DNA of 64,000 nucleotides from Pseudoalteromonas undina (lineage in GTDB: Bacteria > Pseudomonadota > Gammaproteobacteria > Enterobacterales > Alteromonadaceae): positions 558,001 to 622,000 of the forward strand of contig NZ_AHCF03000003.1 of NCBI RefSeq assembly GCF_000238275.3, in the 5' to 3' direction. The position numbers were made by a program, and so were the translations under genes. The notes beneath the pieces are model-generated. The model made no database searches and was not told where the DNA came from. It saw nothing but the letters and a program-made list of their open reading frames with translations. Shown piece by piece: positions 31,279-46,490 of the stretch; positions within the stretch are counted from its first letter, which is position 1; the number at the start of each line of letters is the position of its first letter.

Positions 31279-32325
31279 ATGGATAATACTGCCTCACTTG
31301 CTCATTCTGCCCAGTGTTTAAAAAAAGCCATTCCACTTATGGTGAAGTACAAAATGCCAGTAACGCCAATAAACTATGCGATTTGGTACTGTTATGTACA
31401 GGGCGATAACCCGCAACTAAATACAGAGCTTGATAAAGTTATCGGTCAGCACAATACTTGCTCAGCTCAAAATGCACAGGAAATATTTGATAAATACATA
31501 AACGACGAAGAATTAGCGTTTTTTCAACAAATGTCTGAAAAATTTCATGGTACGGTAGAGCAAGTACAGTTTGACTTGAGTGACTCCATTCAGTATTCAA
31601 AAAGCTTTACTACTTCGTTAGTTGACTCTCAAAATGAGTTAAAAACACTCTCTAGCATTAACTCATTTAATGAAATTCTATCTTGTGTTGAACGTCTAAC
31701 AGATGAATCAATCGCAATGCAAGATTATGCTCGAGGTTTCCAAACTAAATTAGCGCAAGCATATAATGAGATAAAAGATTTAAGAGAAGCCCTCACTATG
31801 ACTCAAGAAGCGGTTGATAAAGATTCACTAACGGGGTTATTTAATCGCGGTAAGTTTGATACTGACATAGTCGAGTTTTGTCTTCATGCATCTTCACAAG
31901 ATGAGCAATCTAAGTTAGCCGTGTTAATAATGTTCGATATTGATCACTTCAAGCGTTTTAATGACGATTTTGGTCACCAAAAAGGCGACGAGGTACTCAA
32001 ACTTGTTGCTCAGAAAGTTCAAAATTGTGTGCAAGAACAATATAATGCGTATCGATTCGGTGGTGAAGAATTTTGTATTACAGGTTACTTTGATAGCATT
32101 AATGATGTGATGACATTCTGCAATCAGTTGCGTTTGAGTATTGCTAAATTAACTATTCGTAAAAAAGAAGATAGCGATAATAAACGTAATATCTCAGCAA
32201 GTTTTGGTATTGCTTTAATGGAGCCTTTTAGTAAAAGCTGTTTATTAGTAGAAAAGGCTGATAGAGCACTTTATTTAGCTAAAACCCATGGTCGAAATCG
32301 AGTTGAAATAGCCGCCAATTTGTAA
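31279..32325 (+). CDS. GGDEF-domain diguanylate cyclase
   Basis: 348 residues. Residues 1-155 form a helical N-terminal region with no recognised sensor domain or membrane segment. Residues ~175-345 form a GGDEF domain: KDSLTGLFNRGKFDTDI start and the active-site GGEEF at 261-265, a functional variant. An RxxD inhibitory site is not seen at the usual position before GGEEF. It should make cyclic di-GMP from GTP in the cytoplasm. Monocistronic, 90 bases after ilvY. Confidence 0.93.
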   Translation: MDNTASLAHSAQCLKKAIPLMVKYKMPVTPINYAIWYCYVQGDNPQLNTELDKVIGQHNTCSAQNAQEIFDKYINDEELAFFQQMSEKFHGTVEQVQFDLSDSIQYSKSFTTSLVDSQNELKTLSSINSFNEILSCVERLTDESIAMQDYARGFQTKLAQAYNEIKDLREALTMTQEAVDKDSLTGLFNRGKFDTDIVEFCLHASSQDEQSKLAVLIMFDIDHFKRFNDDFGHQKGDEVLKLVAQKVQNCVQEQYNAYRFGGEEFCITGYFDSINDVMTFCNQLRLSIAKLTIRKKEDSDNKRNISASFGIALMEPFSKSCLLVEKADRALYLAKTHGRNRVEIAANL

Positions 32326-32436
32326 ACGTGTTCCGTTTGTATCAAATTTGTTAATGATTGTAACCCTCTAGAGCTTGTACTTATACTACTTGCTACTATA
32401 GGGTTAAAGCCACTTTATAAACTAGTGAATAACCCC

Positions 32437-33276
32437 ATGGTGTTACATCTGAGAATAAAAATATGCATTTTATTGGCGTTGTTTAGCGCTAATGCCATTG
32501 CTCAGACGCAGCAACATATCTCTACTGATGAACTTAAAATGAGTGTCAGCTTAGGGGGAGGGGTGATCAGTAACCCTTTACATGGTGCAGACAACATTCC
32601 TTTGGTGGTGGTTCCACAAGTGGCTTATTATGGCCAGAATTGGTTTTTTGATAACGGTCGTTTAGGCTACTCTTTTATACAAAGTGATACGCATAACATT
32701 AGCTTTGTGTCAGAAATTAACCCAGAATCACGATTTTTTATTGACTGGCATCCGCAAAATATATTCCCGCTCACAGCAACGGCTAATAACGAAATATTAG
32801 AATCGCAACACATTGAATCTCCTCGCCAGATTAATATTAATAACATTCAAAAAAGACGAGTGGTGCTGGATGCCGGCGTCAGTTATGTTTTTGTAAAACA
32901 ACAACATGTTTTTTCTGCGCAATTATTGCATGACGTAAACAGTGTTTATAATAGCTTTAGGGGCTCGCTACAATGGCAATACCATTTTGATCTTAAGGTG
33001 TTAGAACTTAAATCGACCTTAGGCGTAAACTACAAATCAGCACAACTAAATAACTACTTTTATGGCTTAAACAAGACAGAATCTTTATATGGTGAAATAG
33101 AAGTTGGTAGTAGCTGGCAACCTTATGCTAAAATCGACGTCCGTTGGCCGGTAGGTAAAGCCAACGCACTTCGTTTTCATTTAGCATATTATGACTATTC
33201 AGCAATGGATAGCAGTCCGCTCTTTGAACATGACTATTCAATGACCGCCTTTATAGGATTCGAACATACATTTTAA
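32437..33276 (+). CDS. MipA/OmpV family outer-membrane protein (module 1)
   Basis: ~280 residues from ATG 32437 (GTG at 32425 also possible; no strong ribosome-binding site helps). Signal peptide (cleavage near NAIAQTQ), then a beta-barrel domain with the MipA/OmpV opening MSVSLGGGVISNPLHGADN, and a C-terminal aromatic signature ending GFEHTF for BAM insertion. MipA-type proteins are outer-membrane proteins; some scaffold murein synthesis enzymes, others respond to envelope or osmotic stress. It is first of a four-gene module with DUF3019, response regulator and kinase genes, paralogous to 43460-44317. Start 1 base before the next gene ends the spacing, so strongly coupled. Confidence 0.85.
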   Translation: MVLHLRIKICILLALFSANAIAQTQQHISTDELKMSVSLGGGVISNPLHGADNIPLVVVPQVAYYGQNWFFDNGRLGYSFIQSDTHNISFVSEINPESRFFIDWHPQNIFPLTATANNEILESQHIESPRQININNIQKRRVVLDAGVSYVFVKQQHVFSAQLLHDVNSVYNSFRGSLQWQYHFDLKVLELKSTLGVNYKSAQLNNYFYGLNKTESLYGEIEVGSSWQPYAKIDVRWPVGKANALRFHLAYYDYSAMDSSPLFEHDYSMTAFIGFEHTF

Positions 33277-33277
33277 T

Positions 33278-33655
33278 ATGAAGTGTTTTATGTTGGTTGT
33301 GTTTGCAGCTTCATTTTTTAGCAACCTAAGTGTTGCAAAAGCCTCTTCACTTAACGTATCACCCAAAGTCTGTGTGGTTTCCGAACAACAAGAATTTTGT
33401 GATCTTGAGTTAAAATTTAAGTGGCAACTGTCTGAGCCAAGTGATGTGTGTTTATACCAGCAAGATACCCAATTGCAATGTTGGCAAGGGGTAAAAAAAG
33501 GGCAATTTAGTTATAAAGCGCGTGTTCAGGTGGAGACCATATACTCCCTGATTAATCCCCTTACAGGTGTGTCATTAGCGAGTGTGCAAGTAGAAGTGCA
33601 AACTGCATACGCTAAGAAAAAACATCGGCTACGCTCACCTTGGAGCTTTTTTTAA
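33278..33655 (+). CDS. DUF3019 exported four-cysteine protein (module 1)
   Basis: 125 residues: signal peptide (~1-22, cleavage near VAKAS), then a small domain with four cysteines in the pattern C-x8-C-x16-C-x9-C-W (PKVCVVSEQQEFCDLE and VCLYQQDTQLQCWQ), probably disulfide-bonded in the periplasm, and a basic-aromatic tail (KKKHRLRSPWSFF). DUF3019 genes are typically found next to OmpR-type two-component systems; the function is not known. It begins one base after the MipA-like stop and is followed 14 bases later by the response regulator. Its paralogue at 43084-43470 keeps the cysteine pattern and the tail. Confidence 0.85.
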   Translation: MKCFMLVVFAASFFSNLSVAKASSLNVSPKVCVVSEQQEFCDLELKFKWQLSEPSDVCLYQQDTQLQCWQGVKKGQFSYKARVQVETIYSLINPLTGVSLASVQVEVQTAYAKKKHRLRSPWSFF

Positions 33656-33669
33656 TTTAGGAGCAGTAA

Positions 33670-34362
33670 ATGCCAAAGATATTACTTGTTGAAGATGACT
33701 TAGGGTTGCAACAATTAACCAAAGACTATCTTGAGCATAATGGCTTAGAAGTTGACGTATTAGAACGCGGTGACGAAGTGTTTCCTTATCTGAGTGAAAA
33801 CCATGTTGATTTAATCATTCTAGATGTGATGCTGCCAGGAAAAGATGGCTTTAGTGTGTGCCGTCAAGTGCGCGACAAATACACCTTACCTATTTTAATG
33901 CTTACTGCAAAGGGCGAAGATTTTGACCAAGTTATCGGCTTAGAACTCGGTGCTGACGATTACGTTATTAAACCTGCAGAGCCGCGCGTACTATTGGCGC
34001 GAATTAGTGCATTATTACGCCGTGGACAGCCTAGCGTAAAAGCCATAGAAGAGCTTAAGTTTGGTGACTTATCAATAGATAAAACTAGCCGTATTGTAAA
34101 GCTAAGTGGTGTTGAAATCGTATTAACCTCACATGAGTTTGAATTGCTGTGGTTATTAGCTTCAAATGCAGGAGAAGTGCTCAGCCGAGAACATGTGCAC
34201 CAACATATGATTGGACGTGAGTACGATGGGCTAGATCGAACCGTTGATGTACGTGTGTCTCGAATTCGTAAGAAGCTTGGTGATAACAGTGATAAACCAT
34301 ACCGTATTAAGACAGTGTGGGGACAAGGCTATTTATTTGTATCAGATGCGTGGGACATGTAA
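33670..34362 (+). CDS. OmpR-family response regulator (module 1)
   Basis: 230 residues: receiver domain (1-118) with acidic pocket EDD at 8-10, phosphoacceptor Asp52 in LIILDVMLPG and Lys101 in DDYVIKPAEP; winged-helix DNA-binding domain (~130-228) ending TVWGQGYLFV. Cytoplasmic transcription factor, phosphorylated by the kinase encoded 26 bases downstream. Most likely targets include the MipA-like and DUF3019 genes of the same module (inference). Ribosome-binding site TAGGAGCAG. Confidence 0.94.
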   Translation: MPKILLVEDDLGLQQLTKDYLEHNGLEVDVLERGDEVFPYLSENHVDLIILDVMLPGKDGFSVCRQVRDKYTLPILMLTAKGEDFDQVIGLELGADDYVIKPAEPRVLLARISALLRRGQPSVKAIEELKFGDLSIDKTSRIVKLSGVEIVLTSHEFELLWLLASNAGEVLSREHVHQHMIGREYDGLDRTVDVRVSRIRKKLGDNSDKPYRIKTVWGQGYLFVSDAWDM

Positions 34363-34388
34363 TTAATGCAAGGTATTAGGCTAGGTTA

Positions 34389-35624
34389 ATGGGAAAGCTA
34401 TTTATTAGCCTTTACGTGTATATTATTGCTTCTTTGTTTATTGCCAGTGGTGTTATAGAGCAGCTTTGGCCGTATGATGAATCTGAGCAACATGTTTTGT
34501 TAGATAATGAATTTGGGCAGTCGTTATGGCTGCTTTCTCAAACGCCAGATGGTCTTGAGCAGCTAAAGCATAATTTTGATAGCCAAGTTATCGCCCAACA
34601 AGATTTGGTTCTCCCTCCTGAGCAGCAAACACAATTAGCTCAAAATAATTACCTTTACTTGTACGATAAGCAGCAACGTATTGTTTGGTATGTCACTTTA
34701 AATAACTCTCAGTTATTACAAATAGGTCCTGTAGGTGTTAAAGCTAAAAACACCGGGACCGTGATACCTTATTTATTAGTTTTATTTATTATTAGCTTAC
34801 CGATAGGGTTATGGAGCTTATTGTTATGGCGAGACTTTGCCAAGCTCAGTCAAGCCTGTGAAGCGGTCGGTGGGGCGCAAGATTTTCAATTAAGCGACAG
34901 CTCTAAATCATTCTTTTTACCCATCACTGATACATTAAAAGTAATGCAGCAACGGATAGAGTTTTTACTGAGTGCTCAACAAGAACTAACCTCATCAGTG
35001 TCACATGAGTTCAGAACACCATTAGCCCGTTTGAAGTTTGCAATCGCAATGTTAGAGAGTAAAGTTCAAGATGGCAAAGCACAGCACTATTTATCTGATA
35101 TGCAAATGGATATTCATGAGCTGGAATCCTTGGTATCAGAAATGTTGGAATACGCTCGTTTAGATACACAGCAACCAAGCTTGCAATTGGTTCCCTGTGA
35201 TATCGTCGCATTAATTAAAGCTAATATCGAAAAAGTAACTTTTGATACACCTATTAAATTAACCACAACGTTGCCGAGTCAATTTATAAACGTATGTGAT
35301 AGTCATTTCATGTCGCGAGTGCTACAAAATTTAATTAGTAATGCACTGAAACATGCTACGCAAACTGTGCATATTAGTTTAACTGCCAACGCCGAAAAGT
35401 TATTTCTGGTGATTGAAGATGATGGCCCAGGTATTGCGGATGCTGAACGTGAGAAAGTGTTTAAACCTTTCACCCGTTTAGATAAAAGCCGTGATAAAAA
35501 AACCGGTGGGTTTGGATTAGGGCTAGCAATTGTAAATAAAATTATTAGCTGGCATAAAGGGCAGTGTAAGATTGAAGACTCACCATTGGGTGGGGTTAAG
35601 TTTATTATCACCCTCGACAACTAA
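34389..35624 (+). CDS. sensor histidine kinase (module 1)
   Basis: 411 residues: transmembrane helix ~7-25, periplasmic sensor (~26-125), second helix ~126-150, HAMP-like linker, dimerisation domain with phospho-acceptor His206 in SSVSHEFRTP, and an ATPase domain with N box (LQNLISNALKHA), G1 DDGPGIADAE and G2 GGFGLGLAIV. It resembles the RstB/PhoQ type. Cognate regulator is the upstream gene. The periplasmic part is short and does not show a known ligand fold to me; the DUF3019 or MipA-like proteins are candidates for partners. Confidence 0.93.
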   Translation: MGKLFISLYVYIIASLFIASGVIEQLWPYDESEQHVLLDNEFGQSLWLLSQTPDGLEQLKHNFDSQVIAQQDLVLPPEQQTQLAQNNYLYLYDKQQRIVWYVTLNNSQLLQIGPVGVKAKNTGTVIPYLLVLFIISLPIGLWSLLLWRDFAKLSQACEAVGGAQDFQLSDSSKSFFLPITDTLKVMQQRIEFLLSAQQELTSSVSHEFRTPLARLKFAIAMLESKVQDGKAQHYLSDMQMDIHELESLVSEMLEYARLDTQQPSLQLVPCDIVALIKANIEKVTFDTPIKLTTTLPSQFINVCDSHFMSRVLQNLISNALKHATQTVHISLTANAEKLFLVIEDDGPGIADAEREKVFKPFTRLDKSRDKKTGGFGLGLAIVNKIISWHKGQCKIEDSPLGGVKFIITLDN

Positions 35625-35636
35625 ATCCCAAACAAT

Positions 35637-35663
35637 AAAAAAGCGCCATAAAGGCGCTTTTTT
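35637..35663 (+). terminator. terminator after module 1
   Basis: AAAAAAGCGCC / GGCGCTTTTTT with a 5-base loop, 12 bases after the kinase stop. It ends the mipA-DUF3019-regulator-kinase unit. Confidence 0.88.
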
Positions 35664-35731
35664 GCGGTTTAAAACCAAAAAATCAACAAGTAGCATATAG
35701 ATAGACAGACCATTTATAGAAAAGTTCTATT

Positions 35732-35962
35732 TTATTTACTATTTTTTTCTAGTAATGGCATCAGCATTTGCTCTAAGCCATTAAGCTTCACTTCGTACAT
35801 CATTGCGAGCTGAGAGCCAAGCTTGCTATCAGGAAAGCCTTGTTGTTTAAACCACACTAAATATGGCTCAGGCAGCAAAAGTAAAGGGCGTCCCGCATAC
35901 TTGCCAAATGGCATAATGGTGTTAATCGCTACTTTTAGTTGTTGAGGATCCATTACTGACAT
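35732..35962 (-). CDS. DUF3820 family protein
   Basis: 76 residues with the DUF3820 core INTIMPFGKYAGRPLLLLPE and YLVWFKQQGFPDSKLGSQL. The family is small and cytoplasmic, and its function is not known; some members are annotated as quorum-sensing-regulated virulence factors. Start may instead be the second ATG at 35953 (MDPQQL). Monocistronic. Confidence 0.85.
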   Translation of the reverse strand: MSVMDPQQLKVAINTIMPFGKYAGRPLLLLPEPYLVWFKQQGFPDSKLGSQLAMMYEVKLNGLEQMLMPLLEKNSK

Positions 35963-36008
35963 CTTTTATAAATAATAGGGATAAGTGTAAGGGATTTTGA
36001 GGAAATAA

Positions 36009-36040
36009 AATAGGCTGTAACGGGCAAGTAACAGCCTATT
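36009..36040 (-). terminator. candidate terminator downstream of the CPA2 antiporter gene
   Basis: Perfect 10-bp stem AATAGGCTGT / ACAGCCTATT with a 12-base loop; on the minus strand it runs into TTTTATTT. It lies ~200 bases after the antiporter stop. A second small hairpin (AGAGGG/CCCTCT, 36044-36061) lies next to it. Confidence 0.6.
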
Positions 36041-36238
36041 GATAGAGGGAGTAGGCCCTCTAATTTGAGAATCTTATTGGTCACTTAAAAGCAAGGGGTC
36101 CGTTATTTGTCTTTTATAAAACACAAACTTAGGTATTAGCTTTATTCAACCAACACAGACATTTTACCTGATTTTTTCACCAATAAAATACTCAGATGTA
36201 AAGGAATGTAAATGCAATCTATTTGCATCTAAGCCCGA

Positions 36239-37810
36239 TTACGGAAACAAGGTTTGCTTTACATGCTCCGCAAAACCGCTACCAGCCTCTAAATAAAAGT
36301 TATAAGTAGAATCTATTCCCATATCTTCTAATTCTTTTTGCTGATCGGGGTAGTTAGCAATCGCAGTTACTTGCCCTTTATAGCCTGATGCTTGTAATTG
36401 CTCTAAAGCAAAAATATTTTGCATATGCTTAGGCATAGTTAACATGACCATTTCCACATGAGAGTGATTAACGCGCTGCCAAAAATCAGGGTCGGTGGCA
36501 TCGGCAATTAATACTCTGCGTCCCCGTTTAATATGTTTATCGACCACCTCAGGTTTAATATCAATACCTGCAACTACATCAGGGTGAGTTGCGTTTATTG
36601 TTTCATAGGCACCAGTGCCAATTCTACCCATACCAAAGATCACTATTTTCGTATCATTTAAGTTTACAGGAAGCTCTTCTGCTAAGCGGGTCTTGCTTTC
36701 AAACTTCAATAAGAGGCGTTCAATTTTAACGTACAGCTCGTTAGAGCGTTTATTTAAAGGGGAAGCAATCACAAATGTAATTGATACGGCAATCGCGATA
36801 ACCGCGAGCCATTCAGAGGTAACCATGCCGCTAGATGCAGCAACGGCACAAACAATTAAGCCAAACTCACTAAAGTTAGCCAAACTAAATGCGGTGAGCA
36901 AAGAGGTACGAGCTCGCAGTTTAAATAAATTAGTTAGTATGTAGTAAAGCAGCGTTTTAACAGGAATAACCAATACTAAAATTAAAGCAACGACTAAAGA
37001 GTGGGCAGTAAGCTCTGCGCTTAAACCAATACTTAAGAAAAAGCCAACAAGTAATATATCTTTAAGGCTAAGCAGCGATTTAGACAGCTCACCTGCTTTT
37101 TTGTGAGGGGCGAACATCATGCCAATGATCAATGCGCCTAAATCGCCTTTTAATCCTGCGAATTCAAAGGCATTGTACCCAGCTACTAATGCAAAGAAAA
37201 AGCCAAATAACGGCAGTAACTCACCGTGTTTAGAGCGGTTTAAAACCCAGTACATAATTGGGCGAAACAAAGGTAGTGCAACAATTAACCCTAAGGCCCA
37301 AATGTTCGGTACTTTACCTGTACTGACCGCTAAGAATATGACTGCAAATATATCTTGCATAACCAAAATACCAATGGCTATTTTACCGTGCAAACTTGCC
37401 ATTTCACCGCGTTCTTCAAGTACTTTTACAGCAAATACCGTACTCGAAAAGCTTAAAGCAAAGCCGACTAACAATGCACTTTGCCAGCTTAAATCGACAA
37501 ATAATGGCAGTGCGAATACACCAAGCAGCAACATGAAGCCACTAAACAATGCGCTACTTAAAATAATATGTATGGTGGCAGGAGCCCACACTTGTGGTTT
37601 TATAAGGTTAGCAATTTTTAGTTTGAGGCCAATACTAAAAAGTAGCAGTGTGACCCCTAAAGAGGCAATCGTTTCGAGTAGCTCCGTGCTTTTGTAACCC
37701 GCTAAATTAAGAATAAATCCGGCCATAAGAAAGCCGATAAGCGGCGGTAACTTTAGCTGATATATACCAAAACCGCAGACGAAGGCGGTAGCAAAATAAA
37801 TTAGTTCCAT
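36239..37810 (-). CDS. CPA2-family monovalent cation:proton antiporter (KefB/YbaL type)
   Basis: 523 residues from ATG 37810 (MELIYFATAFVCG, the family N-terminus); in-frame upstream starts are possible. About 12 membrane helices (1-380) with KLPPLIGFLMAGFIL and GDLGALIIGMMFAPH, then a cytoplasmic Rossmann-like TrkA-N/RCK domain (~395-510; KIVIFGMGRIGTGAYE). It exchanges K+ or Na+ for protons and may be gated by nucleotides. KefB-type glutathione-gated K+ efflux is possible, but residues for that were not identified. Monocistronic. Confidence 0.88.
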   Translation of the reverse strand: MELIYFATAFVCGFGIYQLKLPPLIGFLMAGFILNLAGYKSTELLETIASLGVTLLLFSIGLKLKIANLIKPQVWAPATIHIILSSALFSGFMLLLGVFALPLFVDLSWQSALLVGFALSFSSTVFAVKVLEERGEMASLHGKIAIGILVMQDIFAVIFLAVSTGKVPNIWALGLIVALPLFRPIMYWVLNRSKHGELLPLFGFFFALVAGYNAFEFAGLKGDLGALIIGMMFAPHKKAGELSKSLLSLKDILLVGFFLSIGLSAELTAHSLVVALILVLVIPVKTLLYYILTNLFKLRARTSLLTAFSLANFSEFGLIVCAVAASSGMVTSEWLAVIAIAVSITFVIASPLNKRSNELYVKIERLLLKFESKTRLAEELPVNLNDTKIVIFGMGRIGTGAYETINATHPDVVAGIDIKPEVVDKHIKRGRRVLIADATDPDFWQRVNHSHVEMVMLTMPKHMQNIFALEQLQASGYKGQVTAIANYPDQQKELEDMGIDSTYNFYLEAGSGFAEHVKQTLFP

Positions 37811-37936
37811 AGTTATTAGTATCACTGCACTTGGCATTGTAGTGTAGCGAAAAACAATGCTTATTGACAATTTATCTACTTATTTCCTACTGCTAATTGG
37901 CTGATAGTGAGTATTTATCAGCTGATTGCTAAAACA

Positions 37937-37956
37937 CCTTTATGTATGCATAAAGG
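37937..37956. repeat. short perfect hairpin between antiporter and Spo0M-like genes
   Basis: CCTTTATG-TATG-CATAAAGG, an 8-bp stem with a 4-base loop in the divergent spacer of ~310 bases. No T tract; a regulatory dyad or a small RNA structure is possible. The rest of the spacer is AT-rich with no other recognised feature. Confidence 0.45.
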
Positions 37957-38120
37957 CGGCTGTAAAGTACAAAAAACACACATAAATGGCTAGTTTTATG
38001 GTAAACAGCATGTAAATAGCAGTTTTTCGCTGACAAGCGCTTTTAAATGTGGTTAAGATGCCATAACGAAGGAGTTTAAGTGTAAGCAAACAAGTGTATT
38101 GCTTAGCTTAAGGAGAAAAT

Positions 38121-38864
38121 ATGTTTAAAAAGATTTTAGCATCGGTAGGCATTGGTGCCGCCAAGGTGGATACTATTTTAGAAACCGAGCATCTTCAGCC
38201 TGGCCAACTATTCAATGCACAAATAGTTATTAGTGCAGGTGATGTAAGTCAAGAAATTGCGGGTTTAGATTTAATGTTAGTTACTCGGGTTAAAGTAGCC
38301 AGTGAAGACGGTGATTACTTTACTAATCATGTTATTGATCAATGGCGCATAACTGACATTGGTACTGTTGAGCCTGGTGAAGTTAAAACTATCCCGTTTG
38401 AAGCCCGTTTGCATTCAGAAACACCAATTACTGAAATTAATGCCGGTTATAACCAGTCTTATGTGTGGTTAGAAACAGGGCTTGATATTGACCTTGCGCT
38501 TGATCCAACAGATAAAGACCATTTGCACATCTATCCGAATGAAGCAGTTAAAACCTGTATGCAAGCAATGGAGAAGCTAGGATTTAATTTAGTTAAAGCA
38601 GATGTAGAGCAAGGCCATTTACGTGCTTCTACTTTTCAATCTGTGTCTGGGTGTTATCAAGAGCTTGAATATCAACCAAATAGTCGCAGCTTATTTGGTA
38701 TAAAGGAAATTGAACTGTCGTTTATTCCTGAAGCGCATAAAACGCATGTACTGATTGAGTTAGACAGAGCATTTAGAAGTGACGGTTATGTCGATTTAAC
38801 TATCGAGCATGATCATGTTAACTTATCTCAGTTATGTGATCAGTTAGAGCGATTATTTGCTTAA
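38121..38864 (+). CDS. Spo0M-like (arrestin-fold) protein
   Basis: 247 residues with the Spo0M N-terminus MFKKILASVGIGAAKVDTIL and ETEHLQPGQLFNAQIVISAG, an arrestin-like beta-sandwich in known structures. The family name comes from a Bacillus sporulation regulator, but this organism does not sporulate; in non-sporulating bacteria the role is unknown. Good ribosome-binding site (TAAGGAGAAAAT). It may be co-transcribed with the elaA-like gene 51 bases later. Confidence 0.88.
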   Translation: MFKKILASVGIGAAKVDTILETEHLQPGQLFNAQIVISAGDVSQEIAGLDLMLVTRVKVASEDGDYFTNHVIDQWRITDIGTVEPGEVKTIPFEARLHSETPITEINAGYNQSYVWLETGLDIDLALDPTDKDHLHIYPNEAVKTCMQAMEKLGFNLVKADVEQGHLRASTFQSVSGCYQELEYQPNSRSLFGIKEIELSFIPEAHKTHVLIELDRAFRSDGYVDLTIEHDHVNLSQLCDQLERLFA

Positions 38865-38915
38865 TAAGATTATGGGGCCTTTTAGTAAGGCCCTGTAATA
38901 ATAAAAGGTGTTTAA

Positions 38916-39359
38916 ATGGCGTTTAAATGTGAGCCATTCTCTGCGCTCGACTCCCAAACCCTGTTTGCAATAATGCGTGAACGTGTTGACGTATTTGTTG
39001 TAGAACAAGCGTGTCCTTACCCCGAACTTGATGATGTGGATATTGCAGATGCTACTCGCCACTTGTATTCACTCAATAGGCAAACAGTAAATGCCTATGC
39101 TCGTTGTTATGAAAAAGATGCACATTATAGTGCGATAGGGCGTGTTTTAGTTGCTCAATCACAGCGTAGCTCTGGTTTAGGCAAAGAATTAGTTAGCCAG
39201 GCTATTGCCTGTTGTAGAACTCATTGGCCTACTCGTGATATTTATATAGGCGCACAAACCTACTTACTAAATTTTTATCGCTCATTTGGTTTTGAGTGTG
39301 TTGGGGAGGAGTACTTAGAAGATGGCATACCCCATCAAGATATGATTTTAAAGCAGTAG
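38916..39359 (+). CDS. elaA: ElaA family GNAT acetyltransferase
   Basis: 147 residues. ElaA landmarks: LFAIMRERVDVFVVEQACPY near the N-terminus and the acetyl-CoA loop RSSGLGKELVSQAI (~84-97). It transfers an acetyl group to an unknown acceptor in the cytoplasm. Length and motifs match E. coli ElaA (153 residues). Confidence 0.9.
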   Translation: MAFKCEPFSALDSQTLFAIMRERVDVFVVEQACPYPELDDVDIADATRHLYSLNRQTVNAYARCYEKDAHYSAIGRVLVAQSQRSSGLGKELVSQAIACCRTHWPTRDIYIGAQTYLLNFYRSFGFECVGEEYLEDGIPHQDMILKQ

Positions 39360-39375
39360 ATAATTCTTAATAAAT

Positions 39376-39402
39376 AAAGGCCCACATTAGTGGGCCTTTT
39401 TT
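39376..39402. terminator. bidirectional terminator between elaA and the NSS transporter gene
   Basis: AAAGGCCCAC / GTGGGCCTTT, ATTA loop, T6 on plus strand; between convergent genes. Confidence 0.85.
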
Positions 39403-39408
39403 GTTTTA

Positions 39409-40764
39409 TTAGCTAAGTAAAGAATGTAAAAATACTAAGCTAATGGCGATAGGGCATACAAACTTAGTATACCAAGGCCATATTTTCCAAAATAAGGTGT
39501 TATGTACTTCAGGGTTACCTTGCTGGATTGCTTTGAGCAGTGATGACCTATACCAGATCCACCCTACAAAAATACAACACATAAGTCCTAATAAAGGTTG
39601 CGCGACTTTAGTTGTTAAGGTGATCACTAAACCAAATAACGTGCCTAAGTTGCACACTATGGTAATACTAACTATGGCAATTAAAGCACCTATTAACCAT
39701 GTTGCTTGCACACGCTTCATTGCAAAGCGCTCTACAGTGTACGATACCGGCGCTTCAAGCATTGAAATTGACGAGGTTAGAGCGGCAATACTCATTAATG
39801 CAAAAAAAGCAAAGCCAACAAATAAACCCACACCACCCATGCCATCAAATAAGGCGGGTAAAACCTGAAATACTAAGGTGTCTTCTGAAAGTAGTTTACC
39901 TGTTGTTGACGAGAATATTTCAACACCTTGGGCTTGTGCAACATACATCGCGGGGATAATCAGTAAGCCTGCTACAAATGCGATGAATACATCAATAAGC
40001 GTAACATAAGCCCCCAAAGAGACGAGGTTTTCTTTTTTACTGATATATGAGCCATAGATAATCATTACACTGGTGCCCAGTGACAATGAAAAGAAGGCCT
40101 GTCCTAGTGCACTGACTAATAAGGTGGGATCAAAAATAGAAGAAAAGTCAGGGACTAGGTAAGCTTTTAATCCCTCAACAGCGCCTTCTTGAGTCATTAC
40201 ATAGGCAATTAAGGCAAACAAAATACCGAGCAAAGCAGGCATTAAACGTTTTGACCATTTTTCAATACCATTTTCAACACCGCGGCTGATAATAGCAACG
40301 GTTAAAATAATAAATACCACAGTAAAAAGAATGTTACGTGTAAGTGACTGTTCACTTAACCACGAAGATGCCGCATCTGCGCCTATGAGAGTAGTAACCG
40401 GCTCTAAAGTTGCACTTAACATCCAACCAGCAACAATCGCATAAAAGCTTAGTATAAAGCCAGCACATAAAATCCCGCCAAAGCCAACAGCAAAGGCAAA
40501 CTGCTTTTGCCAAGGTTTAGTGGTTAATTTAGTTAGTGAAGAAACCGCATTAGCTTGTCCATGACGACCTATCATCAGCTCTGCCATTAAAGCAGGATAG
40601 GCTAAAAAGAAGGCCAGTACTAAGTACGCGACTAAAAAGGCAGCCCCGCCATTACTTGCTGTTTGTGTCGGGAAACCCCAAATATTACCAAGCCCAACAG
40701 CAGATCCTGCCGCAGCCATTATAAAACCAAAGCGGGAGCTAAACTCACCTCTTACTGCACTCAT
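39409..40764 (-). CDS. sodium-dependent transporter of the NSS (SNF) family
   Basis: 451 residues from ATG 40764 (MSAVRGEFSSRFGFIMAAAG), the standard NSS start with the sodium-binding motif GSAVGLGNIWGFP; a longer frame extends upstream but lacks family similarity. About 11-12 membrane helices, as in bacterial LeuT-like and MhsT-like carriers. It probably imports an amino acid or related amine with Na+; the substrate cannot be predicted. Ribosome-binding site AGAGAAG ~11 bases before the ATG. Monocistronic. Confidence 0.9.
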   Translation of the reverse strand: MSAVRGEFSSRFGFIMAAAGSAVGLGNIWGFPTQTASNGGAAFLVAYLVLAFFLAYPALMAELMIGRHGQANAVSSLTKLTTKPWQKQFAFAVGFGGILCAGFILSFYAIVAGWMLSATLEPVTTLIGADAASSWLSEQSLTRNILFTVVFIILTVAIISRGVENGIEKWSKRLMPALLGILFALIAYVMTQEGAVEGLKAYLVPDFSSIFDPTLLVSALGQAFFSLSLGTSVMIIYGSYISKKENLVSLGAYVTLIDVFIAFVAGLLIIPAMYVAQAQGVEIFSSTTGKLLSEDTLVFQVLPALFDGMGGVGLFVGFAFFALMSIAALTSSISMLEAPVSYTVERFAMKRVQATWLIGALIAIVSITIVCNLGTLFGLVITLTTKVAQPLLGLMCCIFVGWIWYRSSLLKAIQQGNPEVHNTLFWKIWPWYTKFVCPIAISLVFLHSLLS

Positions 40765-40961
40765 ATTATTTTGCTTCTCTATTTTTTCGACGCCGTGACA
40801 ATCTACTGGAATTGTAAAAAAATAAAAAGTGCTTATTTGACTTAGTCGCACAATTATTGCGTTTTATTTTCAGATATAAATAACACGTGCATTTTTTGAT
40901 TATAAATAGCACGATTTCTTTAATTATATTGCGTTAGTTAGAGCGGATGATACTTGTTTGA

Positions 40962-42251
40962 TTAATATCTAAACCGCGCAATCGTAAGTGTAAAGCAGGC
41001 CCCACCAAGGTGCTCACTTTTACTCACTTCTATTGAGCCATGATGCCAATCGGCTACTTTGGCAACGATAGCCAATCCTAACCCGTAACTGTTGTCACTG
41101 CGATTACGGTGGCTGCGTTCACGGAAGAACGGGCTAAATACTTTTTGATTGTTTTCTTGAGCTATACCTGGGCCATCATCGGCAATGCTGATGACTAGAG
41201 TGTGCTCTTGTAGCGAGGCGGTTACTTTAATGTGATGATGTGCAAAATCGCAGGCATTATTAATTAAGTTAGCGATCGCTCTTGCTAGCCAATGTAAGTC
41301 AGCAAAAATAGTATGATCATCACATTCTAAAGAAATATTAAGCGAACGTGCGGTTATTCTTGGTTCAAGCTGCAGCACAATATCACTTAGATATTGTTTA
41401 AGGTTTGCTGATGAGTAAGTAAGTTTATTGGCATTTTGTTCCAAAGTAGCAAATGCTAAGTAGCTTTTTAACATTGACTCCATATGATCCAAATCGGTTT
41501 CCATACGGGTTAGGTAATGCTTTATTTTGCTCTCATCATGGCTATCAAGTGCAGCGTCAACACCAAAGCGTAAGCATGCTATTGGGGTTCTTATATCATG
41601 GGATAGGCTTGAGGCCATCAGTTTATTTTCAGCAACTAACTTTTCAATTTGGCTTGCCATGCGGTTAAAGGTCAGTTCCACATCTTTAATATAGGTAAAG
41701 CGAGAGGGCTTAATTCGGGCTTTAACATTACCGGATGCGAACTGTTTTGCCGCATCATTTAATACTGTAAGACGTTTTGCTAAAGGGGTAATAATAAAAC
41801 CCATAAAAACACATAAGCCAGTATAAAATAACAAAGTTAAAATTATGTCGTTTCGCTGTGTGCTCTCGTAAGGCTTATCTAAACGCATGGTTAAATGGTA
41901 AGGGCTTAATGCATCATTAGTGTAGAGCATGTAAAAGCCTTGCTCGTCCTCAAGTATTAACCCGCCTTGAGTTTGCATTTTATCTAATAGGGCGAATGGT
42001 AATGCGAGCGACTGATTTAATTTGTAGTTAAGAGTCAGGTTAAAATCTTTGGCTAATTTAGTTACCTGTTCTGGTCGTGCCTGTGGCTTTATAGCTGTGA
42101 GCTGTTTACTTAACCCGACAATAATCTGGCTTTGTACGCTAAACTCATCCAAAGGTGCATGTGCTTGTTGGCTAAATGCATCAATAAGCCAACCTAAAAC
42201 AATAATTGAAAGCAGCGCACTGCCTAGTAGTGAAATATAAAACTTTTTCAT
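40962..42251 (-). CDS. sensor histidine kinase (module 2)
   Basis: 429 residues: transmembrane helix ~6-25, periplasmic sensor (~26-135), second helix ~136-155, HAMP (~158-210), His218 in SSLSHDIRTP, and an ATPase domain with ANLINNACDFAHHH, DDGPGIAQEN and SYGLGLAIV. Same architecture as the module 1 kinase but with a different periplasmic sequence, so the input signal may differ. It follows the regulator gene (42338-43042) by 86 bases on the same strand. Confidence 0.93.
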   Translation of the reverse strand: MKKFYISLLGSALLSIIVLGWLIDAFSQQAHAPLDEFSVQSQIIVGLSKQLTAIKPQARPEQVTKLAKDFNLTLNYKLNQSLALPFALLDKMQTQGGLILEDEQGFYMLYTNDALSPYHLTMRLDKPYESTQRNDIILTLLFYTGLCVFMGFIITPLAKRLTVLNDAAKQFASGNVKARIKPSRFTYIKDVELTFNRMASQIEKLVAENKLMASSLSHDIRTPIACLRFGVDAALDSHDESKIKHYLTRMETDLDHMESMLKSYLAFATLEQNANKLTYSSANLKQYLSDIVLQLEPRITARSLNISLECDDHTIFADLHWLARAIANLINNACDFAHHHIKVTASLQEHTLVISIADDGPGIAQENNQKVFSPFFRERSHRNRSDNSYGLGLAIVAKVADWHHGSIEVSKSEHLGGACFTLTIARFRY

Positions 42252-42337
42252 TGATGCTATTCCATAATAGGCTGGGTGTATTGAAGTGACTTTTATTATT
42301 GTCGCGCTTATTATTTTAAGCGCTCAGGCATTAAAAC

Positions 42338-43042
42338 TTACCACGCTGTAGTCACAAACAAATAACCACGCCCCCAAATAGTTTTTATTTTTTCTGGTTT
42401 TTGCGGATCATCATTAAACTTTTTACGCAAAGCAGAAATAAGCACATCAACGCTTCTATCTAGACCGTCATACTCCCTGCCTTTGGTTGCTTTAAACACC
42501 GCATCACGTGATACAACTTGTCCAGCGTTGCTGGCTAAGTAATGTAGTAATAAATACTCTGCGCTTGAAATATTCACATCTTGCTGGTTGAGTGTAACGT
42601 TACGAGATTCGGTATTAATACTTAATTGACCAATATTGATCATGCTCTCTTGAGCATCAGTTTTAGGTATGTCGCTGCTGTAGCGTAAAGCCGACTTAAT
42701 ACGAGCAAGCAGTGCGCGAGGGCGAACAGGTTTTATAATATAATCTGTGGCACCGACTTCAAGCCCAATGACCTCATCCATTTCTTCATCTCGTGCGGTG
42801 AGCATAATTATAGGGGCTTGATAAAAGCTACGTAACTCACGGCATACACTGATACCATCAAGTCCTGGTAACATAATATCGAGTAAAATAAGTTGTGGGT
42901 TTAAATGCTTTACTTGGCTTATAACTTCATCACCGCGATGACATACATGCACAATATAACCTTGCTCAGTTAAATACTCAGTTACCCATTGTGCAAGAGA
43001 GATATCATCTTCAACCAGTAAAATAGTACCGTAATTATCCAT
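42338..43042 (-). CDS. OmpR-family response regulator (module 2)
   Basis: 234 residues from ATG 43042 (MDNYGTILLVEDD); a longer frame from 43099 would overlap the DUF3019 gene. Acidic pocket EDD 11-13, Asp55 in LILLDIMLPG, Lys104 in YIIKPVRP, and a winged-helix domain ending TIWGRGYLFV. It is the paralogue of the module 1 regulator (both share VIGLE-GA-DY and YDGLDR-VDV segments). Probable cognate partner of the kinase at 40962. Confidence 0.94.
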   Translation of the reverse strand: MDNYGTILLVEDDISLAQWVTEYLTEQGYIVHVCHRGDEVISQVKHLNPQLILLDIMLPGLDGISVCRELRSFYQAPIIMLTARDEEMDEVIGLEVGATDYIIKPVRPRALLARIKSALRYSSDIPKTDAQESMINIGQLSINTESRNVTLNQQDVNISSAEYLLLHYLASNAGQVVSRDAVFKATKGREYDGLDRSVDVLISALRKKFNDDPQKPEKIKTIWGRGYLFVTTAW

Positions 43043-43083
43043 AAGCTTTCTTCGTATACCTGAATGATGTTTATAGTGTGTGG

Positions 43084-43470
43084 CTAAAATAACCGCCAAC
43101 GCCGCTTTTTTTGTCTATTTTGATACACCCATTGTAGTTTAACTTCGCTTACAGCAATCACTTGTGACGTATTACTATCAAACAGCTCAAATGAAATGCT
43201 CTGGGTTGAATCAAAGGCGTAATTAAGTGAGCCTTGTCGCTGTTTAAGCCAGCACTGCATAATGTATTTTGAGGTTGCATCGCGTAAACAATAATTTCCT
43301 ACCTCTGGTTGCTGCCATGATAAGACAACATCGGCATAACATTGACGCCCTTCACGTAAGGCTACACAGGTATCGGGAACAGCAGTAAGTTCACTGGGGG
43401 GTTGTGTAGTGGCTGCAAGCAAAGAGCCCGAATATGTAAACAACAAACAGTAAAAAAATCTAAAGTACAT
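43084..43470 (-). CDS. DUF3019 exported four-cysteine protein (module 2)
   Basis: 128 residues: signal peptide (~1-19, cleavage near LLAAT), then the same cysteine pattern as module 1, C-x8-C-x16-C-x11-C-W (TCVALREGRQCYADV, then YCLRDATSKYIMQCWL). The tail is again basic and aromatic (QKKRRWRLF). Sequence is well diverged from the module 1 copy apart from this frame, so the four cysteines and the tail are likely the functional core. Its start overlaps the end of the MipA-like gene by 11 bases. Confidence 0.85.
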   Translation of the reverse strand: MYFRFFYCLLFTYSGSLLAATTQPPSELTAVPDTCVALREGRQCYADVVLSWQQPEVGNYCLRDATSKYIMQCWLKQRQGSLNYAFDSTQSISFELFDSNTSQVIAVSEVKLQWVYQNRQKKRRWRLF

Positions 43471-44317
43471 AACGCAGGCCTACCTTGGCTTTGTGTTGAT
43501 ATCCTTGGGAAATAATTGGGCTGTCTTCAATTTCTTTTGAAAACCATGTAGTTAGCCAGCCTGCTAAAAATACCCAATCTTGATTGATGGGATATTCAGC
43601 ATGAAATTCAAACATAATACTGGTACTGGCATCGGTACTATAAATAGGGCGTGCTGCGTTTGCTTCATCGCTATCAATACCAAAGTAATAGTTTGTAAAA
43701 TCAGCAGAGTAGGCACTTAAGCCAATACCGGAGCGAAACTCCCAATTGCGCCAAGGTTGAATATGGCTGAAAAACACATTGGCAACCCAACCATTATGAG
43801 CACCGCTTATATCATGTAAATATTCAAATGAAATTTGTGAGTTTTCAAATCGACGTGTTAATCGAAGGCCGGTGTCAAAATCATAGTTACGCTTTTTTAT
43901 ACCACGCAGTGGATCAATTATTCCGTCGTTATAAAAGCCTAAACCTTGTTCATCAAAACCTGCTTGAATGTTGGTGCCTAATAAATCAAGACCCCAATCA
44001 TATTTGTTAATTAAGCTATAGCCTAAAACAAGTCCACCGCTGAGCTGATTATGGTCAAAATCTAGATAAAAATTATCGTAAGAAACTGCAATACTCAAAT
44101 CTAGTTCTGCACCAACATCATAGGAGTTCATGCCAACTAAATAAGAGTCTTCAATATAATAGCCTGCGCCAGCGCTCCAATCCCAGGCAAACCCAGTGGT
44201 GGGTTCCAAAGTGTTATCGGCATAGTAACGATTACTGGCGCTGCTTTGGGCACTAAAAATAGCGGCAACTAATAAGGCCGCACAACCAAAAGACTGTTTA
44301 AGAGAAGTATACGTCAT
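43460..44317 (-). CDS. MipA/OmpV family outer-membrane protein (module 2)
   Basis: 285 residues: signal peptide (~1-27, cleavage near SSASN), then a beta-barrel domain of the MipA/OmpV type (DWSAGAGYYIEDSYLVGMNS, later FEYLHDISGAHNGWVANVFF) ending in KAKVGLRYVL. First gene of module 2. It overlaps the DUF3019 gene at its 3' end. Similar position and size to the module 1 MipA-like protein, but clearly diverged. Confidence 0.86.
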   Translation of the reverse strand: MTYTSLKQSFGCAALLVAAIFSAQSSASNRYYADNTLEPTTGFAWDWSAGAGYYIEDSYLVGMNSYDVGAELDLSIAVSYDNFYLDFDHNQLSGGLVLGYSLINKYDWGLDLLGTNIQAGFDEQGLGFYNDGIIDPLRGIKKRNYDFDTGLRLTRRFENSQISFEYLHDISGAHNGWVANVFFSHIQPWRNWEFRSGIGLSAYSADFTNYYFGIDSDEANAARPIYSTDASTSIMFEFHAEYPINQDWVFLAGWLTTWFSKEIEDSPIISQGYQHKAKVGLRYVL

Positions 44318-44370: not shown

Positions 44371-44410
44371 TAGCTAAATCTGTAAAAAAATGTAGCGGTC
44401 GTCCTAACAA

Positions 44411-45220
44411 CTACTGAACTTTAATTTTATCAATAAGAATACTGCTTAAGTAAAATTGCATCATAGGTGTGAGAGCACTTATTTCGGTGCGTGTGCATGG
44501 CCCATTTAATTTAGTTAAACGACTCAGTTTTGTAATGGTTTTATAAGCAGGGGCCGTTACTTCATTATTAAGCTCAGCTCGTTTAAGGCGAGCCTGTTCA
44601 GTGTTGTGCTTGTGTATAAATGCAACAACTTCTAGCTCATTAGTGATCTTCTTTTCTTCGCTGAAGCTATAAACTAAAGGTTCACGATGAAAGCTTGCAC
44701 TGTCAATTGATGATTTAGCAAACCACACCACATCGCCCGATGCTTTGTGAGTAAGTCGCATGCTAACTTGGGCCAATATATTGGCGCATTGTTGCGACGG
44801 AAATTGCTGCGCTACTTTTGAAAACAGTGAATATGGCTTTTCTGGTTGTGCTAGGGTGTACTTGGCGTCATCTATAAATTCCAGATCAACTTGATGAATC
44901 GCTAACGTGTAATCGCTATTCTCGCTAGTGGTCACCTTAAGCTGTTTATCAATTAAGGCTTGGCTTATTTGAGAGACCAAAGTGTCGGTAACACTTGCAC
45001 GGTCTACGATTACTCTAACAGTTTGATTTTTTTTCACGTTGTGGGCAGGTAATTGTACCGACTTCACTTTTGGTGAAGCATGCTCAGTTTCATATTTTAA
45101 CTGATAAGTTTGGCTCTTAAGCATAGGCTTTGCAGGCATTGCTAAAGGCTCTGCGGGTTGTTTAACGACAGCACAACCTGACGCTGATATTATAAAAAGT
45201 GATACAACTAAAAAACGCAT
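44411..45220 (-). CDS. lipoprotein of unknown function
   Basis: 269 residues from ATG 45220 (MRFLVVSLFIISASGC, lipobox with Cys16); a TTG at 45241 is also in frame. Mature protein is mixed alpha/beta with no recognised domain; a segment resembling NVKKNQTVRVIVDRASVTDT and VDLEFIDDAKYTLAQ reads like outer-membrane-associated lipoproteins, but I assign no function. Monocistronic, divergent from the serine hydrolase gene. Confidence 0.65.
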   Translation of the reverse strand: MRFLVVSLFIISASGCAVVKQPAEPLAMPAKPMLKSQTYQLKYETEHASPKVKSVQLPAHNVKKNQTVRVIVDRASVTDTLVSQISQALIDKQLKVTTSENSDYTLAIHQVDLEFIDDAKYTLAQPEKPYSLFSKVAQQFPSQQCANILAQVSMRLTHKASGDVVWFAKSSIDSASFHREPLVYSFSEEKKITNELEVVAFIHKHNTEQARLKRAELNNEVTAPAYKTITKLSRLTKLNGPCTRTEISALTPMMQFYLSSILIDKIKVQ

Positions 45221-45335
45221 AAATATTTTACATCCACTCAAAAGCCATTAATCGGACATATTGTACGTTAGTCCGAGTAAAAGTTCATGATATTATAACG
45301 GTTGATTATGACTAAAAAAGAAAAATTAGCTAAGA

Positions 45336-46490
45336 ATGAAGTATTTTAACACCTTACCCTTTTACTTTTTTGCCGTGCTCCTTATCGGGACGCATTTACA
45401 GGCGAGCGCAAGCACAGATCCTGATTGGGAAGCATTTGTTAAAAGTTATGGACGCTATACAGAAAAAAAACTAAAAATAAAAAAAATCCCAGGAGGGGCG
45501 CTATCTATTGTCAACTCACAAGCACGTGACTACATCCATACTATGGGCAATACAAAGGTGCGCGGTGGGCAAAAAATTAACCCGCACACTCGATTTCGTT
45601 TAGCCTCCGTATCGAAAACATTTGCAGGGTCGTTAGCGGCTAAACTCGCAAATGAACAGCGGCTCAACCTTTATTTACCTGTTAGTTATTATTTACCGGA
45701 CTTTAAGCAAACTGACTATAAAGATGATTTAAAAGTTTTTCATATTTTAAGCCATTCTAGTGGGCTAGTTCCTAACGCTTACGATAATTTAATCGAATCG
45801 CGAATGGGTTATAAGGACATTGTTGAAAAACTATTGAATGTTAAACCCATTTGTGACCCTGGTGATTGCTATGGCTATCAAAATGTAATGTTTAGCTTAA
45901 TAGACGACGTAATTTTAAAAAGTACCAACAAAACCTATATCCAGTGGCTTAATGAGGCGTTTTTTACTCCCCTAGAAATGAATGATGCTAGTTTGGGTTA
46001 CGATGCCATGGTGCAGGATAATAACTATGCACACCCTCACGTGCGTGGCAAAAAACGTTGGTATAGCGCCCGCTTAAAAAAGAATTATTATAAAGTTGCA
46101 CCCGCGGCAGGGGTAAACGCCAGTGCGTCAGATATGGCTATTTGGTTAAATGCGCAATTAGGGCAATATCCATCGGTATTATCCTTAGATGCATTGGCCA
46201 CGCAAACACGCCCTTATACTCATACTAAAAAAGAACGCTACAGACGAGTATGGCGAGAGCACATGAACGAAGCCTACTATGGGCTAGGCTGGCGTGTGTA
46301 TGACTATGATGATGAAACGCTTTATTATCACAGTGGTTGGGTGCAAGGCTACCGCAGTGACTTAGTGGTTTTTCCGCACTTAAATGTAGGCTTTAGTTTG
46401 ATTTTAAATGCAGAAACTGGGCTCATTAATGAGCTTACTACTGAATTCATAGACCGTTTATTGGCATACAAACGAGGCAAAAAACAATGA
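45336..46490 (+). CDS. serine hydrolase (class C beta-lactamase-related family)
   Basis: 384 residues: signal peptide (~1-24, cleavage near LQASAS), beta-lactamase-like fold with active-site SVSK at 91-94 (FRLASVSKTFAG), a YxN-type motif in CYGYQNVMFS, and the third motif HSG in LYYHSGWVQGYR. Such proteins cleave D-peptides or esters in the periplasm; a true beta-lactamase is less likely. It overlaps the SixA-like gene by 4 bases, so both share a unit. Confidence 0.88.
   Translation: MKYFNTLPFYFFAVLLIGTHLQASASTDPDWEAFVKSYGRYTEKKLKIKKIPGGALSIVNSQARDYIHTMGNTKVRGGQKINPHTRFRLASVSKTFAGSLAAKLANEQRLNLYLPVSYYLPDFKQTDYKDDLKVFHILSHSSGLVPNAYDNLIESRMGYKDIVEKLLNVKPICDPGDCYGYQNVMFSLIDDVILKSTNKTYIQWLNEAFFTPLEMNDASLGYDAMVQDNNYAHPHVRGKKRWYSARLKKNYYKVAPAAGVNASASDMAIWLNAQLGQYPSVLSLDALATQTRPYTHTKKERYRRVWREHMNEAYYGLGWRVYDYDDETLYYHSGWVQGYRSDLVVFPHLNVGFSLILNAETGLINELTTEFIDRLLAYKRGKKQ

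Follow-up and report, generated by a model that had tools for sequence, protein, structure and literature searches.

Two MipA/OmpV–DUF3019–regulator–kinase cassettes in Pseudoalteromonas undina are candidate outer-membrane sensing circuits

It is not settled how Gram-negative two-component systems are informed of what happens at the outer membrane, and the question is raised by a locus of Pseudoalteromonas undina in which the gene for an outer-membrane barrel stands in one array with that for a histidine kinase, twice over. The locus lies in a stretch of 64,000 nucleotides (contig NZ_AHCF03000003.1, positions 558,001 to 622,000; hereafter the window) and consists of two cassettes, each encoding a MipA/OmpV-family protein (M), a DUF3019 protein (D), an OmpR-type response regulator (R) and a histidine kinase (K). 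Module 1 on the forward strand and module 2 on the reverse strand are convergent and 5.3 kb apart (Table 1). What do these cassettes do, and how are the two related? We found that the M-D-R-K cassette is a real unit and that the two modules belong to separate old lineages, and we lean, by analogy, towards the view that each is an autoregulated outer-membrane sensing circuit with MipA and DUF3019 as co-sensor for the kinase.

Scoring of the open reading frames (ORFs) with Pfam and NCBIfam models bore out the original prediction, made from the sequence alone, of two modules with the same four gene types in the same order on opposite strands: all four types gave Pfam matches. The two MipA proteins scored 95 and 120 bits (PF06629; gathering cut-off 24.2) and the two DUF3019 proteins 93.5 and 96.5 bits (PF11456; gathering cut-off 25). 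RstA/RstB was the best NCBIfam match of both regulators and both kinases, at scores below the equivalog cut-offs (RstA, 240 and 245 versus 330 bits; RstB, 206 and 245 versus 478 bits). For the module 2 regulator, an alternative TTG-started ORF extends to 43099. Beyond the two modules, no further DUF3019 or MipA gene was found in the 4.03-Mb genome. Among named genomes, the window's DUF3019 proteins are best matched in Pseudoalteromonas.

DUF3019 was present in 87 of 394 genomes (143 hits) drawn from the order that holds P. undina (Enterobacterales in GTDB), in all 108 Pseudoalteromonas genomes and in 9 of 369 genomes drawn from the class, seven of these representing seven families outside the order. 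A length-filtered DUF3019 profile was used instead of an iterated one, which had swelled to 290 hits. For the order set, 140 regions were fetched round all 141 hits outside the window; L172 yielded no DUF3019 ORF and is not counted, and with the window the set holds 142 DUF3019 ORFs. The arrangement was M-D-R-K in 123 of them (both window modules counted), M-D in seven, D-R-K in five, M-M-D-R-K in three, and D-R and M-D-K in one each, with two more in a single M-D-M-D-R-K array. In five of the seven M-D cases, R-K follows after one inserted gene: in L052 it encodes a hydrolase of the beta-lactamase family, in L074 a TonB receptor, and in L049 and L164 (both below Pfam cut-offs) and L059 (no Pfam match) a small protein of barrel-like appearance. 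Outside the order, M-D-R-K was found in six of seven cases, the remaining one having R-K ahead of M-D, and 80 named loci comprised 68 M-D-R-K, nine M-D, two M-D-R and one M-M-D-R-K. The co-occurrence for which the original prediction had proposed a search is thus found within and outside the order, and the cassette is a real unit, not a chance association. MipA itself often occurs without DUF3019: among the matches listed, DUF3019 lay directly after MipA in 8 of 20 MipA-anchored family regions picked roughly at intervals down the MipA matches, a figure that is biased low because picks landing on cassettes already seen were swapped out. Searches for mobile carriage gave no phage match, none confirmed among viral contigs, and only two matches in the plasmid set, both on Pseudoalteromonas replicons of more than 1.2 Mb at 29% identity.

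Some loci depart from the usual form. Nine Pseudoalteromonas loci (L210–L213 and L215–L219) have a MipA–DUF3019 pair, and nothing resembling a regulator or kinase was found among the ORFs of the fetched stretch; these pairs are possible orphan sensors working through another cassette. MipA is split into two ORFs in L098 and L161, the DUF3019, regulator and kinase ORFs being intact, and at L094:4769-6046 DUF3019 and the response regulator form one 426-aa ORF, which may be an assembly error or a true fusion.

Trees were built from complete cassettes, 36 for the family and 123 for the order, incomplete ones being excluded. In the concatenated family tree, modules 2 and 1 fall in clades of 14 and 16 rows, respectively. 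The module 2 clade returned in all four single-protein trees (Shimodaira–Hasegawa-like approximate likelihood ratio test (SH-aLRT) values of 100, 96, 97 and 99 for M, D, R and K), whereas the module 1 clade was recovered only in the MipA and kinase trees (SH-aLRT 93 and 94); the sets nearest to it had 17 rows in the D tree (overlap 0.94) and 22 rows in the R tree (0.73). The four-protein agreement to which the original prediction had looked therefore holds throughout for module 2 and by half for module 1. When partners were swapped between copies in the 13 genomes with two full cassettes, the native correlation was reached in 0 of 1,000 swap sets for all six protein pairs, and from this, together with the agreement of the trees, we conclude that the cassettes were inherited as units. 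Tree correlations of M and D were higher with the kinase (0.71 and 0.74) than with the regulator (0.48 and 0.58), as expected of sensor partners. In the order-wide tree (FastTree, with long-branch warnings; rows having a MipA of 200 aa or less additionally left out), the lineages each cover more than one family, and several genomes of other genera carry one cassette of each lineage. The two window modules belong to separate, old paralogous lineages, each represented in more than one genus and family, and are not duplicates of each other as had first been supposed. They may answer two different signals; the lineages do differ in operator form, in the DUF3019 tail and in neighbours.

The convergent pair is itself conserved. 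Two convergent DUF3019 genes 9.7–13.4 kb apart occur in at least 43 of the 108 Pseudoalteromonas genomes, that of the window included. In 20 regions selected for block comparison because the pair is present, module 1 was followed in all 20 by four intervening genes, module 2, a gene for a lipoprotein-like protein and a divergent gene for a serine hydrolase. Extra ORFs are present in some of these paired regions, and in L279 module 2 has two MipA genes. Because this order is kept in 20 of 20 regions, both modules are stable neighbours; the genes between them, earlier called unrelated, do have other functions but belong to a conserved block. A GGDEF gene lies directly upstream of module 1; it was ruled out as part of the module 1 core, being absent there in 6 of the 20 paired regions.

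A candidate operator precedes mipA. The strict repeat, defined as TGTA-N6-TGTA or TACA-N6-TACA (10-bp spacing), was present in 52 of the 136 upstream regions in which it was also discovered, compared with 1 of 133 kinase coding controls and at most four in 40 shuffles, and the TGTA/TACA repeat at other spacings from 6 to 21 occurred in 0–6 of the 136 regions each. By lineage, it was found in 19 of 25 regions of a subtilisin clade, 21 of 43 of the module 2 lineage, 9 of 22 of the module 1 clade, 2 of 9 of a nine-row beta-propeller clade and 0 of 23 of a Shewanella-type clade. Of 20 Pseudoalteromonas regions sampled, 19 have it in front of module 2 (in L279, before one of the two MipA genes), and it is present in four of seven cassettes outside the order. 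Before module 1, a relaxed form, TGT(A/G/T)-N6-TGTA, occurred in 21 of 21 upstream regions and in 0 of 21 mipA coding controls, the pattern having been derived from the same upstream regions in which it was counted. No firm result came from a search for -10 elements behind the repeat. A direct repeat with 10-bp spacing fits a regulator of the OmpR family, and the TACA repeat at this spacing resembles the E. coli RstA box (TACATNTNGTTACA). The presence of the 10-bp-spaced repeat before mipA, set against the coding controls, suggests that the cassette is autoregulated. That each module is a self-contained unit, as originally predicted, accords with these operator-like repeats before both mipA genes, with the module 2 clade in all four trees and with the swap sets.

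Cassette lineages also have characteristic neighbours. Neighbour families were assigned by Pfam on representatives and otherwise by BLAST clusters or our own profiles, and were counted without a random-locus control: subtilisins (PF00082), as a rule upstream and divergent, in 22 order-set regions from six genera; beta-propeller proteins (PF09826), divergent, in 17 regions from 12 genera (19 by BLAST cluster); TonB receptors in 13, usually encoded upstream in the same direction; M16 peptidases in four; and serine hydrolases within the fetched flanks of seven, as well as in 42 of the 80 named loci (mostly Pseudoalteromonas). Serine hydrolases lie in or beside the cassette across several genera. 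In the MipA-anchored sample, a divergent beta-propeller gene accompanies two DUF3019 cassettes (L258 and L262), and a hydrolase gene lies between D and R in L270. On the order tree, a single clade of 25 rows contains all 21 with a subtilisin. The 17 rows with a beta-propeller protein belong to the module 1 clade or to those next to it, and rows with a TonB receptor or a hydrolase to the 43-row module 2 clade; the number of label changes, with no shuffled control, was 5 for 21 subtilisin rows, 8 for 17 beta-propeller rows and 6 for 12 TonB-receptor rows.

The predicted proteins are compatible with a contact between M and D. The AlphaFold model of module 2 MipA is a beta-barrel with porin-type structural matches, and a strand-parity estimate put the inward net charge of MipA at a mean of -6 in 37 rows (-7 for module 2). 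DUF3019 is predicted to be an Ig-like sandwich with an Arg-rich aromatic tail that is disordered or of low confidence; its Ig-like structure matches indicate fold type only, none reaching a Foldseek E of 0.001 or less. Four cysteines are invariant in a 41-row alignment, and the last 16 residues have a net charge of at least +3 in 131 of 141 proteins and Trp at -4 in 131 of 141. No lipobox was seen by eye in the window DUF3019 proteins. A sequence search of solved structures returned nothing for DUF3019 and one weak match without clear meaning for MipA. The sensor segment of the kinase has a mean net charge of -6.6 (n=133).

Table 1 Features of the two modules and adjoining genes (positions in the window)
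Feature	Position	Strand	Basis
GGDEF protein, upstream of module 1	31279-32325		
Candidate module 1 operator, TGTA-N7-TGTT-N6-TGTA	32338-32362	+	Sequence; no match to strict pattern
Module 1 MipA/OmpV-family outer-membrane barrel	32425-33276, likely ATG 32437	+	PF06629 E 7.9e-27; NCBIfam OmpVVibrio partial, below cut-off
Module 1 DUF3019, small exported protein, basic aromatic C-terminus	33278-33655	+	PF11456 E 1.3e-26
Module 1 OmpR-type response regulator, RstA-like	33670-34362	+	PF00072+PF00486; NCBIfam RstA best, 245 bits vs cut-off 330
Module 1 HisKA histidine kinase, RstB-like, ~92-aa periplasmic segment	34389-35624	+	PF00512+PF02518; RstB 245 bits vs 478; hydropathy scan
Module 2 histidine kinase, RstB-like, ~106-aa periplasmic segment	40962-42251	-	Pfam, NCBIfam, hydropathy scan
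Module 2 OmpR-type response regulator, RstA-like	42338-43042, ATG 43042	-	Pfam, NCBIfam
Module 2 DUF3019, Ig-like sandwich, low-confidence basic aromatic tail	43084-43470	-	PF11456 E 1.5e-27
Module 2 MipA/OmpV-family barrel, 12 strands	43460-44317	-	PF06629 E 3e-34; AlphaFold pLDDT 88
Candidate module 2 operator, TACATTTTTTTACA	44381-44394, 64-77 bp before mipA	-	Sequence
Lipoprotein-like protein, module 2 neighbour	44411-45241	-	No Pfam/NCBIfam match; present in 20/20 paired regions
Exported serine hydrolase, beta-lactamase family, 384 aa, divergent, ~1 kb upstream of module 2	45336-46490	+	PF00144 E 1.4e-55; 20/20 paired regions

To explain these features we infer a circuit in which MipA would be an acidic 12-strand outer-membrane barrel and DUF3019 a soluble Ig-like adaptor in the periplasm. 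Through its C-terminal tail, rich in Arg and aromatic residues, DUF3019 may dock on MipA, either at the acidic mouth that faces the periplasm or in the lumen. This docking would be altered when the outer surface changes, be it through a cationic peptide, a shift in divalent cations or lipopolysaccharide (LPS), or a substrate of the neighbouring hydrolase; DUF3019 and/or MipA would then switch the RstB-like kinase, and the RstA-like regulator would bind the 10-bp-spaced TACA/TGTA direct repeat before mipA, controlling the cassette along with the neighbour typical of its lineage, whether subtilisin, beta-propeller protein, TonB receptor or serine hydrolase. The window modules would then be separate channels of two old lineages. 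The template is the MipA–MipB pair of Pseudomonas aeruginosa, with DUF3019 filling the place of MipB in our proposal: in that species, MipA binds polymyxins and the pair is proposed as polymyxin co-sensors for ParRS (PMC10936184). The ligand and the tail plug are the weakest links, drawn from charge, conservation and analogy. An extension that we consider unlikely would have DUF3019 imitate a cationic amphipathic peptide from within the cassette: its tail, Arg-rich and ending in Trp/Phe, would plug acidic MipA until true cationic peptides or outer-membrane damage displace DUF3019, which would then signal to the kinase. On this view the cassette has radiated into several lineages, a surface protease, receptor or hydrolase being coupled to each, as parallel outer-surface sensing channels in marine Gammaproteobacteria.

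Several observations weigh against the co-sensor circuit. The strict repeat, found and counted in the same regions, is missing from 84 of the 136, including all 23 of the Shewanella type and window module 1. D-R-K occurs without M in 5 of the 142 order-set cassettes, in one of which (L071:5061-8198) an 872-aa TonB-dependent receptor (PF00593, PF07715) replaces MipA; conversely, the fetched stretches of the nine M-D named loci and of two order-set loci, L034 and L037, yielded no ORF resembling a regulator or kinase. The charges are uneven, with only -2 inward in the module 1 MipA row and only -1 in the module 2 kinase sensor. Net acidity of MipA averages -12.1 without DUF3019 (n=12) and -13.7 with it (n=132); because MipA without DUF3019 is about as acidic, acidity is not pairing-specific and was rejected as a DUF3019 signature. 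The conserved DUF3019 tail could equally bind LPS or something else. The neighbour counts lack a random-locus baseline, and no beta-propeller gene was found beside module 1 or in the genome searched.

A rival view is that of a simple autoregulated operon, in which the RstAB-like system senses alone and adjusts a porin-like barrel and its helper, MipA and DUF3019 being mere outputs. OmpR-type systems often control adjacent membrane genes, the repeat is located before mipA, and M can be absent or replaced in D-R-K loci, just as M-D is found without R-K. Set against this, M and D co-diverge more tightly with the kinase than with the regulator, and DUF3019 is predicted to have a small fold of its own in which the basic tail is exposed. 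Moreover, deletion of mipBA reduces ParRS output, the pair being needed for full output (PMC10936184). We rate the operon of outputs as possible, and somewhat on the improbable side.

MipA could instead be a cell-wall scaffold, the cassette monitoring peptidoglycan synthesis and the serine hydrolase being a wall enzyme. A tether role of MipA between MltA and PBP1b is cited in PMC10936184, and the AmpH carboxypeptidase model picks up the PF00144 protein next to module 2, below its cut-off. However, in other lineages it is subtilisins, beta-propeller proteins and TonB receptors that recur as neighbours, and no known wall-synthesis gene was seen by eye among the window block genes read, which makes a wall monitor very improbable. 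As to origin, the convergent arrangement 5.3 kb apart, kept in the genus, would suit an inverted duplication within the Pseudoalteromonas lineage followed by divergence in place. We rejected a local inverted duplication and give it hardly any credence: the copies are not sisters, module 2 grouping with its 14-row clade in all four trees and module 1 with other genera, and several other-genus genomes hold one cassette of each lineage.

The cassette is of interest because it is small and recurrent, and because one kinase has been inherited in it together with a barrel of the outer membrane and a small protein of the periplasm. It offers a testable role for DUF3019, a domain of unknown function, and provides a predicted operator together with natural paralogues and orphan pairs for tests of specificity.

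Among known systems, E. coli RstA/RstB is the best NCBIfam match of the window regulators and kinases, although their scores fall well below the equivalog cut-offs, and to our knowledge RstA/RstB has no MipA or DUF3019 partner. In Vibrio, the MipA/OmpV gene ompV lies next to CarRS/VprAB, an OmpR-type system linked to calcium and polymyxin responses; we know of no DUF3019 there. RcsF is a small envelope protein that relays the state of the outer membrane to a signalling system. DUF3019 would resemble RcsF and NlpE (acting on CpxA) in this respect but, unlike these lipoproteins, the window proteins show no lipobox by eye and have another predicted fold.

The MipA–MipB/ParRS system, itself compared with NlpE–CpxA in PMC10936184, offers the closest parallel. 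Most loci screened there have a two-component system adjoining mipA, so the earlier statement that no described function was known is only partly right: MipA beside such a system has been published. Common to both cases are a MipA-family barrel tied to a two-component system, a kinase periplasmic domain of about 100 residues (102 in ParS) and an exported, positively charged partner encoded alongside MipA; the positively charged C-terminal domains of MipB are modelled on the periplasmic side or mouth of MipA, and the regulator binds the mip promoter, where the window has a candidate repeat before mipA (PMC10936184). The partners differ: MipB is a beta-lactamase-fold lipoprotein of about 590 residues, whereas DUF3019 is an Ig-like protein of about 100 residues. 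No window protein combines the features of MipB, a lipoprotein that is encoded with mipA and has two C-terminal domains besides its degenerate beta-lactamase fold. The nearest to it is the 384-aa PF00144 protein, which is divergent, about 1 kb upstream of module 2 and too short for the added domains; an S-V-S-K motif is present (by eye). Unlike the published system, the window has M, D, R and K in one array, with R and K nearest to RstA/RstB. If the circuit is as we propose, the MipA co-sensor idea would extend from Pseudomonas to marine bacteria.

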